IMG/VR virus record: IMGVR_UViG_3300031669_000072
Span: 1-42,424 of that record
DNA from: a virus
Length of the DNA stretch: 42,424 nt
Reading direction: 5' to 3' (one strand)
Part shown: positions 1 to 42,424 of the stretch, one piece after another
How positions within the stretch are numbered: the stretch's first letter is position 1
Layout of the letters: the number at the start of each line of letters is the position of its first letter
Translations under genes and position numbers: made by a program
Notes under the pieces: generated by a model
The model's input: the letters and a program-made list of their open reading frames with translations, nothing else
Databases searched by the model: none
Told to the model about the DNA's origin: nothing

Positions 1-131
1 CCTTTCTTTCGCCTTCAGCCGCCTTCCATTCATCCAGCCACTTTCCGGCTTCAGCAATCGTCTCCGAAGGCAGACCACCATCGAGAGTGAGCCGGGCCCG
101 CTCCAGGTCAATCTTGATATCATCCCGATCA
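1..131. repeat. Left copy of the contig-terminal direct repeat
   Basis: These 131 bases are repeated at 42294-42424 with a single mismatch at position 5 (T here, C in the right copy). The mismatch lies in a codon of the primase-helicase gene and is silent (AGA/AGG, Arg). The repeat shows a circular or terminally redundant molecule with a unit of 42,293 bp. A short overlap at both ends is what an assembler leaves on a circular genome; a real packaged terminal repeat is the alternative. Confidence 0.95.
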
Positions 132-886
132 AGAGGGACGACCGCAAAAGGTAGAGTCTTATGGATCGATAGCAGGCACTTGATCTTTCGCTTCTGGTTG
201 TTGAGCTTATCGAACTTCACGCGCCCGGCGTGCTCCGGGAACTCCTCGAAAAACGCCTTCTCAATATCATATAAGAGGGCATTGAAGGCCTCCATCCAGA
301 CCTTGAAATCGTGGTCCTGTTTTTCACGGTTGAAGCCTGCCAGGGCCCTGTTCTCCGATACGTCAGATAGGCCCGGATGCAACCAGATATAGAGTCCCTG
401 CCCCGAAAAGAGCACACCGACTGACTCTGCGATGCCTCGGTCTTTCAGGTATCGCACCATGAAGGACGCCGCCGCTTCCAAGGCCTCGGTCCGGCCCGGA
501 TGGTAGAGTTTTGATCCAGTCTCGCCCGGCGCCTTTGTGGCGTCGATGTCGGCGAAGAGACTGTAGGATATCAGATCTCCTCGGGTTCCCAGGGGGAACT
601 CTGGCCGCCCTTCTCCTCCTCTCCCTTCCACCCACTGAGACGAGAGATCGAATACTTCAGGGGAGAATACGTCGGCGGTCATGTAGAGCGATCGGGCCCG
701 CGCTGTTGTATCGTCGTAATCGGCAGGCCCACGAAGCCTAACAGCATCACCGGGGCCCTTGGAATACCAACCCTCGTCGCCGTTGAGCCCTCGAAGCCCC
801 CCAGCATAACTGCATAGCTTGAGAATGACTTCTTTAACTTCCTGTCGCTTATAATGCCCCCCGGTGATCTCCGTTGCGGTGCCCAT
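1..886 (-). CDS. Primase-helicase, N-terminal part (PriS-like primase domain); continues at the right end
   Basis: This is the first 295 codons of a 1037-residue protein that crosses the contig join and continues from 42293 to 40066 in the same frame. The start ATG overlaps the stop of the upstream nuclease gene (TGATG). The fold is an archaeo-eukaryotic primase: the metal-binding motif FADID is at residues 111-115, the nucleotide-binding motif SGQGLYIWLHP at 161-171, and the third motif, starting VKFDKLNNQ, at 223-231. It would synthesise RNA or DNA primers at the viral fork. The family and catalytic order follow known PriS/PrimPol enzymes; the exact subfamily is not known. It is the third gene of the early minus-strand operon that starts near 1632. 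Confidence 0.88.
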   Translation of the reverse strand, partial: MGTATEITGGHYKRQEVKEVILKLCSYAGGLRGLNGDEGWYSKGPGDAVRLRGPADYDDTTARARSLYMTADVFSPEVFDLSSQWVEGRGGEGRPEFPLGTRGDLISYSLFADIDATKAPGETGSKLYHPGRTEALEAAASFMVRYLKDRGIAESVGVLFSGQGLYIWLHPGLSDVSENRALAGFNREKQDHDFKVWMEAFNALLYDIEKAFFEEFPEHAGRVKFDKLNNQKRKIKCLLSIHKTLPFAVVPLDRDDIKIDLERARLTLDGGLPSETIAEAGKWLDEWKAAEGERK

Positions 887-1479
887 CAGATCACCTTAAT
901 GAACTGCTGCTTATCGATTTTGGCCTGAATCAACGGAGAAAATACCGGTCCTTCGGGATTATTCAAAGCAGTTGATAATAAGAACCCTACCCCAACGTTC
1001 CAGTTCCAGCCGTGAACGTCCCTTTCAAACTCGGCGAACCGCCAGAGGGAGCGGAGGGCCTGGAAGGTATGCCTGTATTCGGTGTTTGGAATCTCACCCA
1101 CCCTGGCGGCATAGTCGCGCCCATATGATGAGGGAACCTTCTTCTTCTCGAAGTCGAATAGGCATCCCCGGATACTATCTTGAGTGGCCAGTACATAACA
1201 GGCGGGCTGAATTTCGCGGTGATCTACATAGAACTTGAGCCCGTCCCTCGCATATCGAAGGGTCTGGGCGACGCCATCTAAAACATTCCCGGCACTTTTG
1301 GCATGTTTAACTTCGACCGCTATGGGATACCCGTTGTTAATAATCAGCATGTCGGGCCTTTCCGCCGTATCACATTGAAAGACCGGATAGCCGAAGTTGT
1401 TCTTTTTCTCCCAAAAAATCCTACCTTGAATCCACTGTGAAAGGAAGGATTTGACCTTTTCCTCATCTACCTTTGCCAT
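886..1479 (-). CDS. PD-(D/E)XK family nuclease
   Basis: A 197-residue protein with the restriction-endonuclease fold signature: Pro-Asp at 42-43, a hydrophobic strand, then EVK at residues 56-58, and a glutamine in AQTLRYA at about 72 as in motif IV of several viral and Cas4/RecB-like nucleases. It should be a metal-dependent DNA nuclease. It sits between a small RHH protein and the primase-helicase with which it overlaps by one base, so a role in replication or recombination intermediates is likely. It could also supply the exonuclease partner for the Bet-like annealing protein at 10067. No zinc or iron-sulfur cysteine cluster is visible. The start follows GGGAGACAACGTCGT, an acceptable ribosome-binding site. 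Confidence 0.75.
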   Translation of the reverse strand: MAKVDEEKVKSFLSQWIQGRIFWEKKNNFGYPVFQCDTAERPDMLIINNGYPIAVEVKHAKSAGNVLDGVAQTLRYARDGLKFYVDHREIQPACYVLATQDSIRGCLFDFEKKKVPSSYGRDYAARVGEIPNTEYRHTFQALRSLWRFAEFERDVHGWNWNVGVGFLLSTALNNPEGPVFSPLIQAKIDKQQFIKVI

Positions 1480-3867: not shown

Positions 3868-3994
3868 GCTACACGTGCATATCTACCTTGACGATTCCGA
3901 GGCTGAGATGCTTCAAAAAGTCAAGGGTAAGGTGACCTGGAAAGAGCTTCTGGTGCTGGGAGCTGAAAAGGAGGAGGCCGACGATGACAACTAA
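3866..3994 (+). CDS. Small RHH-like protein upstream of the pentapeptide-repeat gene
   Basis: A 42-residue protein with strand LHVHIYLDD, a helix (SEAEMLQKVKGKV) and a second helix (TWKELLVLGAEKEE), matching the RHH pattern and resembling the regulator at 24356 in its opening. It overlaps the next gene by 11 bases and carries that gene's ribosome-binding site (AAGGAGGAGG) in its own codons. The operator-like inverted repeat overlaps its start. Confidence 0.55.
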   Translation: MLHVHIYLDDSEAEMLQKVKGKVTWKELLVLGAEKEEADDDN

Positions 3995-4625
3995 ACGTCA
4001 GATAGATATTGGGGCAGTGCTTGCGGCCCACTCTGAGTGGCTAGTGGGAGAGCCGGGTGGTGCTCGCGCTGATCTACGGGGAGCGAACCTGCTCGGTTCC
4101 GACCTGCGTGAAGCCAACCTGCGTGAAGCCAACCTGCGTGAAGCCAACCTGCGTGAAGCCAACCTGCGCCATGCCGACCTGAGCTATGCCAACCTGAGCG
4201 GTACCGACCTGAGCTGTACCGACCTGAGCGATGCCAACCTGTACGGTGCCAACCTGAGCCATGCCAACCTGTACGGTTCCGACCTGCGCCATGCCAACCT
4301 GTACGGTTCCGACCTGCGCCATGCCAACCTGTACGGTTCCGACCTGCGCCATGCCAACCTGTGGGGAGCGGACCTCGACTTTTCGGCGTGGCCGCTATGG
4401 TGCGGGTCGATAGGAGTCATCACCGACGACCGGCTCAAAATCCAGTTAATTGCTCATGTGACGGTCTTGGCCGGAGATATCGCCGACCCGGACCTGGCCG
4501 AACTTCTGGGGTCCGACTTATTCGGGCGTGTCGCCCGAAAATGCCATCATGCACCAGAGATGGGGTTGGCGGATGCGGCCGGTTGGACGAGCGGGGTGGG
4601 GGCCGAGCATGGCCGAGATGAGTGA
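3984..4625 (+). CDS. Pentapeptide-repeat protein
   Basis: A 213-residue protein. Residues 28-132 are about 20 consecutive A(D/N)LXX pentapeptides, which fold as a right-handed quadrilateral beta helix. Some family members mimic DNA and inhibit gyrase or other DNA enzymes; many have unknown roles. The C-terminal 80 residues have no repeats. A short N-terminal helix precedes the repeats. As a viral accessory gene it might protect DNA or inhibit a host enzyme, but nothing in the sequence fixes the target. The ribosome-binding site AGGAGGAGG is strong. Confidence 0.85.
   Translation: MTTKRQIDIGAVLAAHSEWLVGEPGGARADLRGANLLGSDLREANLREANLREANLREANLRHADLSYANLSGTDLSCTDLSDANLYGANLSHANLYGSDLRHANLYGSDLRHANLYGSDLRHANLWGADLDFSAWPLWCGSIGVITDDRLKIQLIAHVTVLAGDIADPDLAELLGSDLFGRVARKCHHAPEMGLADAAGWTSGVGAEHGRDE
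4102..4360 (+). repeat. In-frame DNA repeats within the pentapeptide gene
   Basis: A 15-bp unit (core CTGCGTGAAGCCAAC) is repeated almost exactly four times from 4102, and a 30-bp unit (CGCCATGCCAACCTGTACGG plus ten bases) three times from about 4285. Near-identity at DNA level, not only protein level, indicates recent expansion by slippage or recombination. Confidence 0.85.
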
Positions 4626-40065: not shown

Positions 40066-42424
40066 TCACATCCTGCTTCGGGGATACCATGTCCCCGGCG
40101 ATCGCTCTTCCCAGCCTCTCGCTTCCAGGATCGGGGCCCCCTCGCCTTCGTCCAGATCCCACTCGAGCTCGAGGGCTTCGACGTTGTAGGCGTCGCCCTG
40201 TCGTTCCATCTCGGAGAGGACCTGGAGCATTTCATTGTTTTTCTCAGGCATGTGCTCAAGCAGGTTACAAGCAGAGCCAACTTCTGAAATGTCTCCTCTT
40301 ATCGTTTTTACAGGCATCTCAACCATCTCAACCATTTTTCGATATTCCTCCTCAATAGAGAACCTATGTACAATAAAATCCCATTTTGCCTGCGATGCTT
40401 GTAAAACCGATATCCCCTTCCCATAATCATGCTTGAGATCTGCTTGAGAATGCTTGTAAATGCTTGTAAAACCAGTAGCTATAGACTTAATAACACTATC
40501 TACCTTATCGTCATGCAACATCAATCCAGGATAGGCAGTATAGCTTTTACCGTCTATTTTCGGTCTCACTGGGTCTCTTCCGTTGCAGAGTCTCTTCAGA
40601 TACCGACCAAAATAAGACTCGTCTACCACTTCGCCCACCAAATACCGACACCACTTTTTATAATATTCATATATTGCGGAGGTCGGTATCTTGATGGATA
40701 TGGCCGTTTCATCATATTCACAAAACGCATCACAGAACGTCAAAACGCTCGCGCTTTGTTGTGCGTATTCACAGAACATCTCGCTTGCTTGGCGTTTCAA
40801 TATCTCCCCGGTTCTGATTATTTCGGGGGCACGCCACAGCAGAAGATTCAATATCCCAGAAAGCTCCTCGTCGGTCGTGATCCGTTCAAATAAATGGGGA
40901 TCTTTTTTCTTCTGCAGGGGATCGTTCTCGTCCGGGTTAGGTAGAAAAGTATAAGGCAGGTCTATCTTGATGAATCGCTCCATCCAGCCTATAGATGTGT
41001 CGTCAATCCGGGGCATGGCGTTTGTATCCACTATGGTCTGGAAGTACGGTTTGAACTGAATGCGACTTTTGTTTTTCCGATCAGCATCTATCGTTCCGGC
41101 CCCGCTCACCAACTTTATAAAATCGGTTCCGATGGTTGACTTCTTTTTTCCCGATTGCTCAGAAGCTATCCAACCACGTTTTTTATAAAATGCACTTGAT
41201 GCAAAATTGTTTTTCGTTACCTCTGATAAGGCCATTTCTCGGAACGACGGCTCGCCAAAAAATTCCATCTGCAAATCTTCATAAGTTCCTTTCCCGTTCC
41301 TGCCCAGCCCCAGCATAAACAGTACATACGGGATAGGTTTTTTTATCGCCGTCGCTGGAAACCAATCGATCAGAGTTAGCCGGTCGGTAACATTTGGAGC
41401 ACTAGTTTCTAAGAATCGCAAGAAGTTTGTACATTTTGCTGATGGATTATATTCGACATCGATCATGTCAGTGATGAGATCTTCGGGTCGGTATTCTCGG
41501 ACTTCCCCCGTTCTCAGATCGGCCACGCCGTTTCGTAACCCCAGAAGGTATGGGTCGGGATCAAATTCAACTGGTGTCTCTAGGAGAATGTTCTTAATCC
41601 GTCTTGTGACCTCTTGCACGTCTCTGCCGTTGGCCCTGTCCCCAGCCACGGTGGTTATCTTCAGATCGATTTTCCGCTCACCGTCGTCTCGGTACACTTG
41701 ACCATCATACCAAAATATCTCGGTCTCGTTTTTTGACATCGCCAGAACGAAATACTTTCCTATAAGAGCATCAGTGGAGGCAGTGGGTGAAAACTTATAG
41801 TAGACCCCACCATCCTTATTTATAACCTCGTTGCAAAAGTCTGTAAGTTCATCCTTTGGTTGTTTCCCATATTGGCCTGGCCAAATGGCTCCCTCGCATT
41901 TCTCATCTGGATTGCACAAGTTCAACCCCCCGAAGCCGAGAGATGGATATCCCGCGCTCGTCTTTTGGATCGTCTTACACGACGGGCTGTTGATGACACC
42001 ATAAGAGGTATAGAAGATCCTCGTCTCCACGTCACACCTGGCAGCGACATTGTACCACAGATCGAATGCCTCCCCCTCATCCCAGCCTGCCTGATAGAGC
42101 CAGGCTGCCAGTGCCCCACATACCCGGTGAGCCCCCGTGCCTCCCGGAAACGTCCCAAGTGCCTGATAGAGGGGGCACCAATCCAAGATAGGTATTGGCT
42201 CCGATACCCGGCTGATCTCCCCCGACACATTAGCCTTCCTGGAGATGTCCCTTTCGGCTTTGGCGGCATAGGGCTTCAGAAGAGAGATGAGTGCCTTCCT
42301 TTCGCCTTCAGCCGCCTTCCATTCATCCAGCCACTTTCCGGCTTCAGCAATCGTCTCCGAAGGCAGACCACCATCGAGAGTGAGCCGGGCCCGCTCCAGG
42401 TCAATCTTGATATCATCCCGATCA
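40066..42424 (-). CDS. Primase-helicase, C-terminal part (PriL Fe-S-like domain and SF3 helicase)
   Basis: Continuation of the protein that starts at 886; full length 1037 residues, here about residues 296-1037 plus the repeat overlap. Numbered on the full protein: residues 330-430 look like the C-terminal domain of the large archaeal primase subunit (DWCPLY, then HRVCGALAAWLYQAGW, and cysteines at 335, 401, 422 and 428 that could hold a 4Fe-4S cluster). A D5-type linker follows. The SF3 helicase has Walker A GLGRNGKGT at 624-632 and, further on, NAMPRI with a downstream Arg finger region. It should prime and unwind viral DNA. Stops at 40066. Confidence 0.87.
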   Translation of the reverse strand, partial: DRDDIKIDLERARLTLDGGLPSETIAEAGKWLDEWKAAEGERKALISLLKPYAAKAERDISRKANVSGEISRVSEPIPILDWCPLYQALGTFPGGTGAHRVCGALAAWLYQAGWDEGEAFDLWYNVAARCDVETRIFYTSYGVINSPSCKTIQKTSAGYPSLGFGGLNLCNPDEKCEGAIWPGQYGKQPKDELTDFCNEVINKDGGVYYKFSPTASTDALIGKYFVLAMSKNETEIFWYDGQVYRDDGERKIDLKITTVAGDRANGRDVQEVTRRIKNILLETPVEFDPDPYLLGLRNGVADLRTGEVREYRPEDLITDMIDVEYNPSAKCTNFLRFLETSAPNVTDRLTLIDWFPATAIKKPIPYVLFMLGLGRNGKGTYEDLQMEFFGEPSFREMALSEVTKNNFASSAFYKKRGWIASEQSGKKKSTIGTDFIKLVSGAGTIDADRKNKSRIQFKPYFQTIVDTNAMPRIDDTSIGWMERFIKIDLPYTFLPNPDENDPLQKKKDPHLFERITTDEELSGILNLLLWRAPEIIRTGEILKRQASEMFCEYAQQSASVLTFCDAFCEYDETAISIKIPTSAIYEYYKKWCRYLVGEVVDESYFGRYLKRLCNGRDPVRPKIDGKSYTAYPGLMLHDDKVDSVIKSIATGFTSIYKHSQADLKHDYGKGISVLQASQAKWDFIVHRFSIEEEYRKMVEMVEMPVKTIRGDISEVGSACNLLEHMPEKNNEMLQVLSEMERQGDAYNVEALELEWDLDEGEGAPILEARGWEERSPGTWYPRSRM
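42294..42424. repeat. Right copy of the contig-terminal direct repeat
   Basis: Repeats positions 1-131 with one silent mismatch (position 42298 is C where position 5 is T). See the left copy for interpretation. Confidence 0.95.

Follow-up and report, generated by a model that had tools for sequence, protein, structure and literature searches.

At the two ends of the window, which is the whole 42,424-nucleotide stretch of IMG/VR record IMGVR_UViG_3300031669_000072 analyzed here, lies one gene on the minus strand, running from position 886 down through base 1 and continuing from the other contig end to position 40066. Its 5′ part (2–886, minus strand, with an ATG at 886) encodes residues 1–295, consisting of an AEP catalytic domain and a linker; this part shows 82–89% identity in IMG/VR relatives and no Pfam or PHROG match of its own. 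The 3′ part (40066–42423, minus strand) is a 785-aa frame, open at its 5′ end, that covers residues 253–1037, comprising a PriL-type C-terminal domain (PriL-CTD), an SF3 helicase, and a tail. The 295-aa and 785-aa frames have 43 identical residues in common, so that the joined chain amounts to exactly 1037 aa, and positions 42294–42424 are the same as bases 1–131 save for one base (base 5, a synonymous difference). The record is therefore circular or terminally redundant, with a unit of about 42,293 b.

Because the gene spans the contig ends, separate viral genes might have been fused only in this assembly by a chimeric join. The overlaps of 43 residues and 131 bases (one base differing), together with the uninterrupted reading frame in vir515 and other contigs, make this explanation exceedingly improbable. 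vir515 (BK063672; listed host, Methanosarcinales) has the same gene as a single unbroken open reading frame of 1056 aa, with the window protein being 88% identical to it over the N-terminal part and 70% over the remainder. Several IMG/VR contigs hold unbroken copies as well, as do genome contigs from a Methanosarcinales MAG, from Methanocrinis natronophilus, and from a Methanothrix sp. A chimeric assembly was accordingly dropped, the intact relatives carrying the gene as one reading frame. The sequence-only reading had proposed a chain of 1037 residues, split by the contig ends, that joins an AEP, a PriL Fe-S-like domain, and an SF3 helicase. The exact overlap and the intact relatives, together with the motifs and domain homologies found on the joined protein, confirm that this three-part architecture is real and extends the known AEP/primase fusions; all of the motif and cysteine positions named in that reading are correct on the joined chain. 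Its expectation that automatic annotation would miss the gene holds for this record, in which the gene is split, but not for vir515, whose copy had already been deposited as "DNA primase", with the middle domain unrecognised.

Genes for a tail tape-measure protein, a terminase, head morphogenesis, and RecT in the window are marks of a tailed virus. Given the presence of the primase gene in vir515, with its Methanosarcinales host, and in methanogen genome contigs, the host is probably a Methanotrichales-type methanogen, and the window would thus be a virus of such methanogens. Upstream of the primase gene, and having base 886 in common with it, is a gene for a PD-(D/E)XK-like protein of 197 aa (886–1479, minus strand; HSDR_N match weak and below the cut-off), which adjoins the primase in L002–L006 (52–96% identity) and was not found in L010–L016. 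The window also contains, within 2063–2237, a tRNA-Leu (taa) gene with an odd tRNA-like match alongside, and the product of 3984–4625 is clearly a pentapeptide-repeat protein (match to PF00805 at E = 2e-35); DNA mimics are among the proteins with this fold.

As judged from its motifs, Foldseek matches, and a profile match to PolpTN2, the N-terminal domain is a divergent AEP. Motif I (FADID, residues 111–115; 542–556, minus strand) contains D113 and D115, both kept in all of the homologues aligned; motif II is SGQGLYIWLH (residues 161–170; 377–406, minus strand); and motif III (KFD, residues 224–226; 209–217, minus strand) is followed by NNQKRKIKCLLSIHK, which is like the KRLIR..SLH of PriS. 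Across the family, motifs I (DID), II (SGxG), and III (K-F/Y-D in most members) are conserved, and D226 is kept. Motifs I–III of the AEP superfamily are thus all present, but the canonical His of motif II is Tyr166, this position being mostly Tyr in the family, with His in one two-domain relative and Asn in one member. PolpTN2 likewise has a substitution here, namely Gln, with which the Tyr region of the family was aligned in the profile match.

The catalytic domain has no Pfam, PHROG, or PDB sequence match, and a PDB search with the AEP–PriL profile returned nothing relevant. The family profile does match PolpTN2, in the stretch of its AEP that spans motifs I and II (hmmsearch E = 9e-6 against this single target; hhalign, 76%). 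Foldseek searches with the AEP–PriL model gave leading matches nearly all to PriS (eukaryotic best) and CAPP Prim-Pol, with weak scores (E = 1.5e-3 at best, TM ~0.3). The earlier description of the domain as PriS-like therefore stands for fold and motifs, but not for a significant sequence profile link to chromosomal PriS: no Pfam DNA_primase_S (PF01896) match was detected, PriS profile scores were non-significant, and hhalign gave 12.6%. The nearest sequence relative is probably PolpTN2, and the domain PrimPol-PV1-like.

Separated from the AEP by a short linker only, residues ~330–440 (41860–42192, minus strand) contain Cys335, Cys401, Cys422, and Cys428 as well as an invariant R352; HRVCGALAAWLYQAGW is found at residue 351 of the joined chain. 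These residues had been read as a PriL Fe-S-like domain, with an unrelated zinc domain as the outcome to guard against, and the profiles found PriL. Pfam PF04104 (DNA_primase_lrg) was matched by four of 12 homologues individually (L011, 8.2e-8; L010, 1e-6; vir525, 5e-4; L012, 0.01), and NCBIfam PriL models were matched by homologues with 6e-6 at best, with no Pfam match to PriCT-1/2 or a zinc family in any of the 12; an unrelated zinc domain was dropped on these grounds. In hhalign comparisons with the CTDs of chromosomal PriLs, the 12-protein fusion set gave a probability of 96.9 and E = 1.7e-10 (against ~32 CTDs) and a 25-protein set gave E = 6e-14, with the reversed, shuffled, and PriS controls at E = 0.15–0.73. 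The window clade alone showed a non-significant direct match to the canonical PriL CTD (E = 0.04); profile–profile comparison of this clade with a set of standalone PriL-CTD proteins (described below) gave E = 1e-32, and that of the standalone set with canonical PriL E = 4e-13. Thus, by homology linked through intermediates, residues ~330–440 are a PriL-type Fe-S C-terminal domain. The wording "PriS-PriL fusion" is apt insofar as an AEP is joined to a PriL-CTD; the PriL N-terminal docking domain, however, is absent: of the 266 profile positions, the first 60 are left out of every Pfam match in the family.

All four cysteines, singled out earlier as a PriL-CTD feature, are kept in each of the first 12 homologues, in which AEP–PriL identity falls to ~35%, and Cys2–4 in nearly all of the 25-protein set, two members of which are truncated; C354 and C382 of the same domain are not conserved in homologues. 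Cys401, Cys422, and Cys428 occupy the same columns as in all canonical PriLs, and the loop separating the second cysteine of the site from the third is longer here. The placement of Cys335 varies with the alignment: either it shares the column of the canonical first Cys or it is displaced from it by two. The domain most likely holds a 4Fe-4S cluster on these four residues. A distant viral relative (L097:6016–7332) has lost Cys2–4 and is a natural cluster-loss variant, so that at least part of the family can do without the cluster. AlphaFold models built on 12 and eight sequences were of modest quality (pLDDT 75 and 64), and in the second (785 aa) most of the PriL part was below 60, too poor there to use.

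Two other readings of the middle domain were weighed. AEP–PriCT–helicase layouts are common in mobile elements, and PriCT is distantly homologous to the Fe-S_N subdomain of PriL (PMC5862659), so that the domain might be a PriCT-1/PriCT-2 with incidental or zinc-binding cysteines, and the protein an ordinary AEP–PriCT–SF3 primase-helicase; the non-significant PriL match of the window clade by itself fits with this. There is only a slim chance of this being so, given that among the 12 homologues Pfam returned DNA_primase_lrg and never PriCT_1/2, that the four Fe-S-site cysteines are kept, three of them in canonical columns, and that PriCT similarity is limited to the Fe-S_N part of PriL. Somewhat less improbable, but still unlikely, is a PriL-CTD fold with zinc or no metal, that is, a PriX-like module in which the cysteines are structural relics: PriX functions without a cluster, L097 does without Cys2–4, and Cys335 is possibly displaced. 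Relics would drift, however, whereas all four cysteines are retained 12 out of 12 times down to ~35% identity, and Cys2–4 almost throughout the set of 25 (two truncated). A PriL-CTD with a cluster is thus the preferred reading.

The helicase assignment is unambiguous. The D5/P4-type SF3 helicase (40996–41655, minus strand) comprises matches to D5_N (41407–41655; PF08706, E = 2e-17) and DUF5906 (40996–41313; PF19263, E = 2e-9), with the Walker A motif GLGRNGKGT, named already in the sequence-only reading, at residue 624 (41284–41310, minus strand). TIGR01613 (SF3, D5/P4 type) was matched in nine of the 12 homologues, and the helicase half matches PHROG families of primases and helicases. Both sequence and structure matches were obtained with ASFV C962R and the SaPI5 primase-helicase, and a match by structure only (Foldseek) with MPXV E5.

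Comparison with L004 showed the helicase to lie within an exchangeable cassette (40241–41865, minus strand), inside which there is no DNA similarity to L004, with 87–89% identity on both flanks. DNA identity is 87.5% up to a sharp break at 41866; beyond the cassette, it is again high (88.6%) between 40240 and the stop codon, over a conserved C-terminal tail of ~58 aa (40066–40240, minus strand); at the protein level, identity is 91% over AEP–PriL and 33% over the C-terminal module. Likewise, L010 and L011 are 78% identical in AEP–PriL with unrelated C-terminal modules, whereas L010 and the window protein are 53% identical in the helicase and only 39% in AEP–PriL. Several SF3 subtypes were found among the C-terminal modules of the 16 chains compared, and three modules among these chains (L011/L068, L003/L012, and L067) gave no SF3 match in the searches made. 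Two-domain AEP–PriL proteins without a helicase also exist, viral contigs included. The AEP–PriL pair thus appears to be a conserved functional unit, the helicase having been swapped many times among relatives. Variety of helicases behind AEPs is already known for PrimPol-PV1; new here, as far as the comparisons indicate, are the Fe-S PriL-CTD in a PrimPol-PV1-like setting and the sharp recombination boundary. As a side observation, the AEP–PriL proteins whose C-terminal module lacks an SF3 match (L011:2709–5960; L003:8001–10784; L067:1–2862, minus strand) include two with P-loop-like motifs, GDSSGGKT (L011) and GDWVVGKS (L067), which suggest other helicase families.

True PriL has been reported in a survey to be nearly exclusive to chromosomal primases, with mobile elements using the related PriCT (PMC5862659). 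In the present family, a four-Cys PriL-CTD occurs in mobile elements, fused to a catalytic domain as well as to a helicase. A PriS–PriL fusion is indeed known, as pointed out in the earlier reading, from an archaeal plasmid of the pTN2 type, namely PolpTN2 of Thermococcus nautili plasmid pTN2 (PrimPol-PV1 supergroup), which has a brown, Fe-S-like appearance and is an active primase (PMC3973330). The two proteins are alike in the fusion of an AEP to a four-Cys PriL-like domain. PolpTN2, however, lacks a helicase in its chain and still has regions of the PriL NTD-like, PriCT-1, and WH types; between its PriL part and the PriL-CTD of the window protein, no similarity was detectable. AEP–PriCT–SF3 primase-helicases (pRN1 ORF904, the SaPI5 primase, and P4-family primases) similarly combine an AEP, a small helical domain, and an SF3 helicase, the window helicase being homologous to their D5/P4 type, but have PriCT where the window protein has the four-Cys PriL-CTD. 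The archaeal chromosomal PriS–PriL heterodimer, with PriX, contains a homologous PriL-CTD with Cys2–4 in register; the window protein, in contrast, is one chain without the PriL NTD, has a helicase attached, and belongs to a separate PriL-CTD clade (98/97). For the helicase half, the ASFV PrimPol C962R and poxvirus D5/E5 matched best in structure and sequence, but nothing in them matched a PriL-type domain when compared here. Finally, BcMCM of the Bacillus prophage phBC6A51, a prophage listed as holding a PriS–PriL-type fusion (Gill 2014), likewise joins an AEP and a helicase in one viral chain, but its helicase is an MCM rather than an SF3. No earlier description of an AEP–PriL(Fe-S)–SF3 protein was found in the open-access papers searched, which does not prove its absence.

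Taken together, the gene of this tailed virus very probably codes for a primase-helicase that serves in replication as a single chain, in which the AEP would make the primer, the PriL-CTD (most likely with an Fe-S cluster) would aid initiation, and an SF3 ring, exchangeable among relatives, would unwind the DNA. In published work (PMC5700102), initiation depends on the PriL-CTD or PriX, which holds the initiating nucleotide and without which the first bond does not form; that work also has the Sulfolobus primase priming in the absence of its Fe-S cluster, a point against the present model. In the proposed mechanism, the PriL-CTD would take the role of the host PriL-CTD or PriX, holding the initiating nucleotide and the template for the first bond, with R352 as a candidate basic residue in initiation, while the PolpTN2/PrimPol-PV1-like AEP would synthesize the primer. 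With the PriL-CTD tethered directly to the AEP, a PriL N-terminal docking domain would be dispensable, and the two would form an initiation–elongation pair. The C-terminal SF3 domain is predicted to form a hexameric ring that opens the origin, unwinds the duplex, and feeds single-stranded template to this pair, with priming following unwinding and the helicase serving as an exchangeable cassette on the conserved AEP–PriL unit. The annotation of vir515 includes no DNA polymerase, and primers may be extended by a host polymerase or by the AEP itself. Tethering of initiation and catalytic modules in one chain would let Cys mutation test the disputed role of the Fe-S cluster, for which natural variants exist, the cysteines being kept in the window protein and vir525 and lost in L097; helicase exchange on a nearly identical AEP–PriL background is, moreover, a natural experiment on the coupling of a primase to different motors.

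Among 238 genomes from the class to which G003 belongs (Methanosarcinia), ~36 encode a standalone protein of ~226–315 residues with a PriL-CTD of the same subfamily. The gene upstream of it is the same in all 16 cases examined, and L15e is its neighbor in 10 of these; with such constant chromosomal neighbors, the standalone PriL-CTD is a cellular gene with a fixed locus. Tree support is 93/85 for its grouping with the viral fusions and 98/97 for its separation from canonical PriL. The standalone protein resembles an Fe-S-bearing PriX. Standalone four-Cys PriL-CTD genes are seen, for example, at L056:4515–5195 and in L077–L092. Tentatively, and at rather less than even chances, the Fe-S PriL-CTD subfamily may move between viruses and the chromosomes of Methanotrichales and relatives, with viral copies locked to the AEP as a priming core that takes different ring helicases, and standalone chromosomal copies being the Fe-S counterpart of PriX, possibly a third primase subunit or an interferer with viral priming.

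A PF04104 search also retrieved, from another archaeal genome, an 879-residue frame (L054:5421–8057, minus strand) containing a Prim-Pol domain (PF09250, 2e-15), a four-Cys PriL-CTD (PF04104, 5e-7), and an SF3 helicase. Searches with this type of Prim-Pol/PriL protein matched no viral contig; in phages and plasmids, the matches were mostly to Prim-Pol. The L054 protein represents an independent origin of the same three-part layout from an unrelated Prim-Pol. A further frame, of 553 residues (L055:1426–3084, minus strand), has a weak C-terminal PriL-CTD match (PF04104, E = 4e-4).
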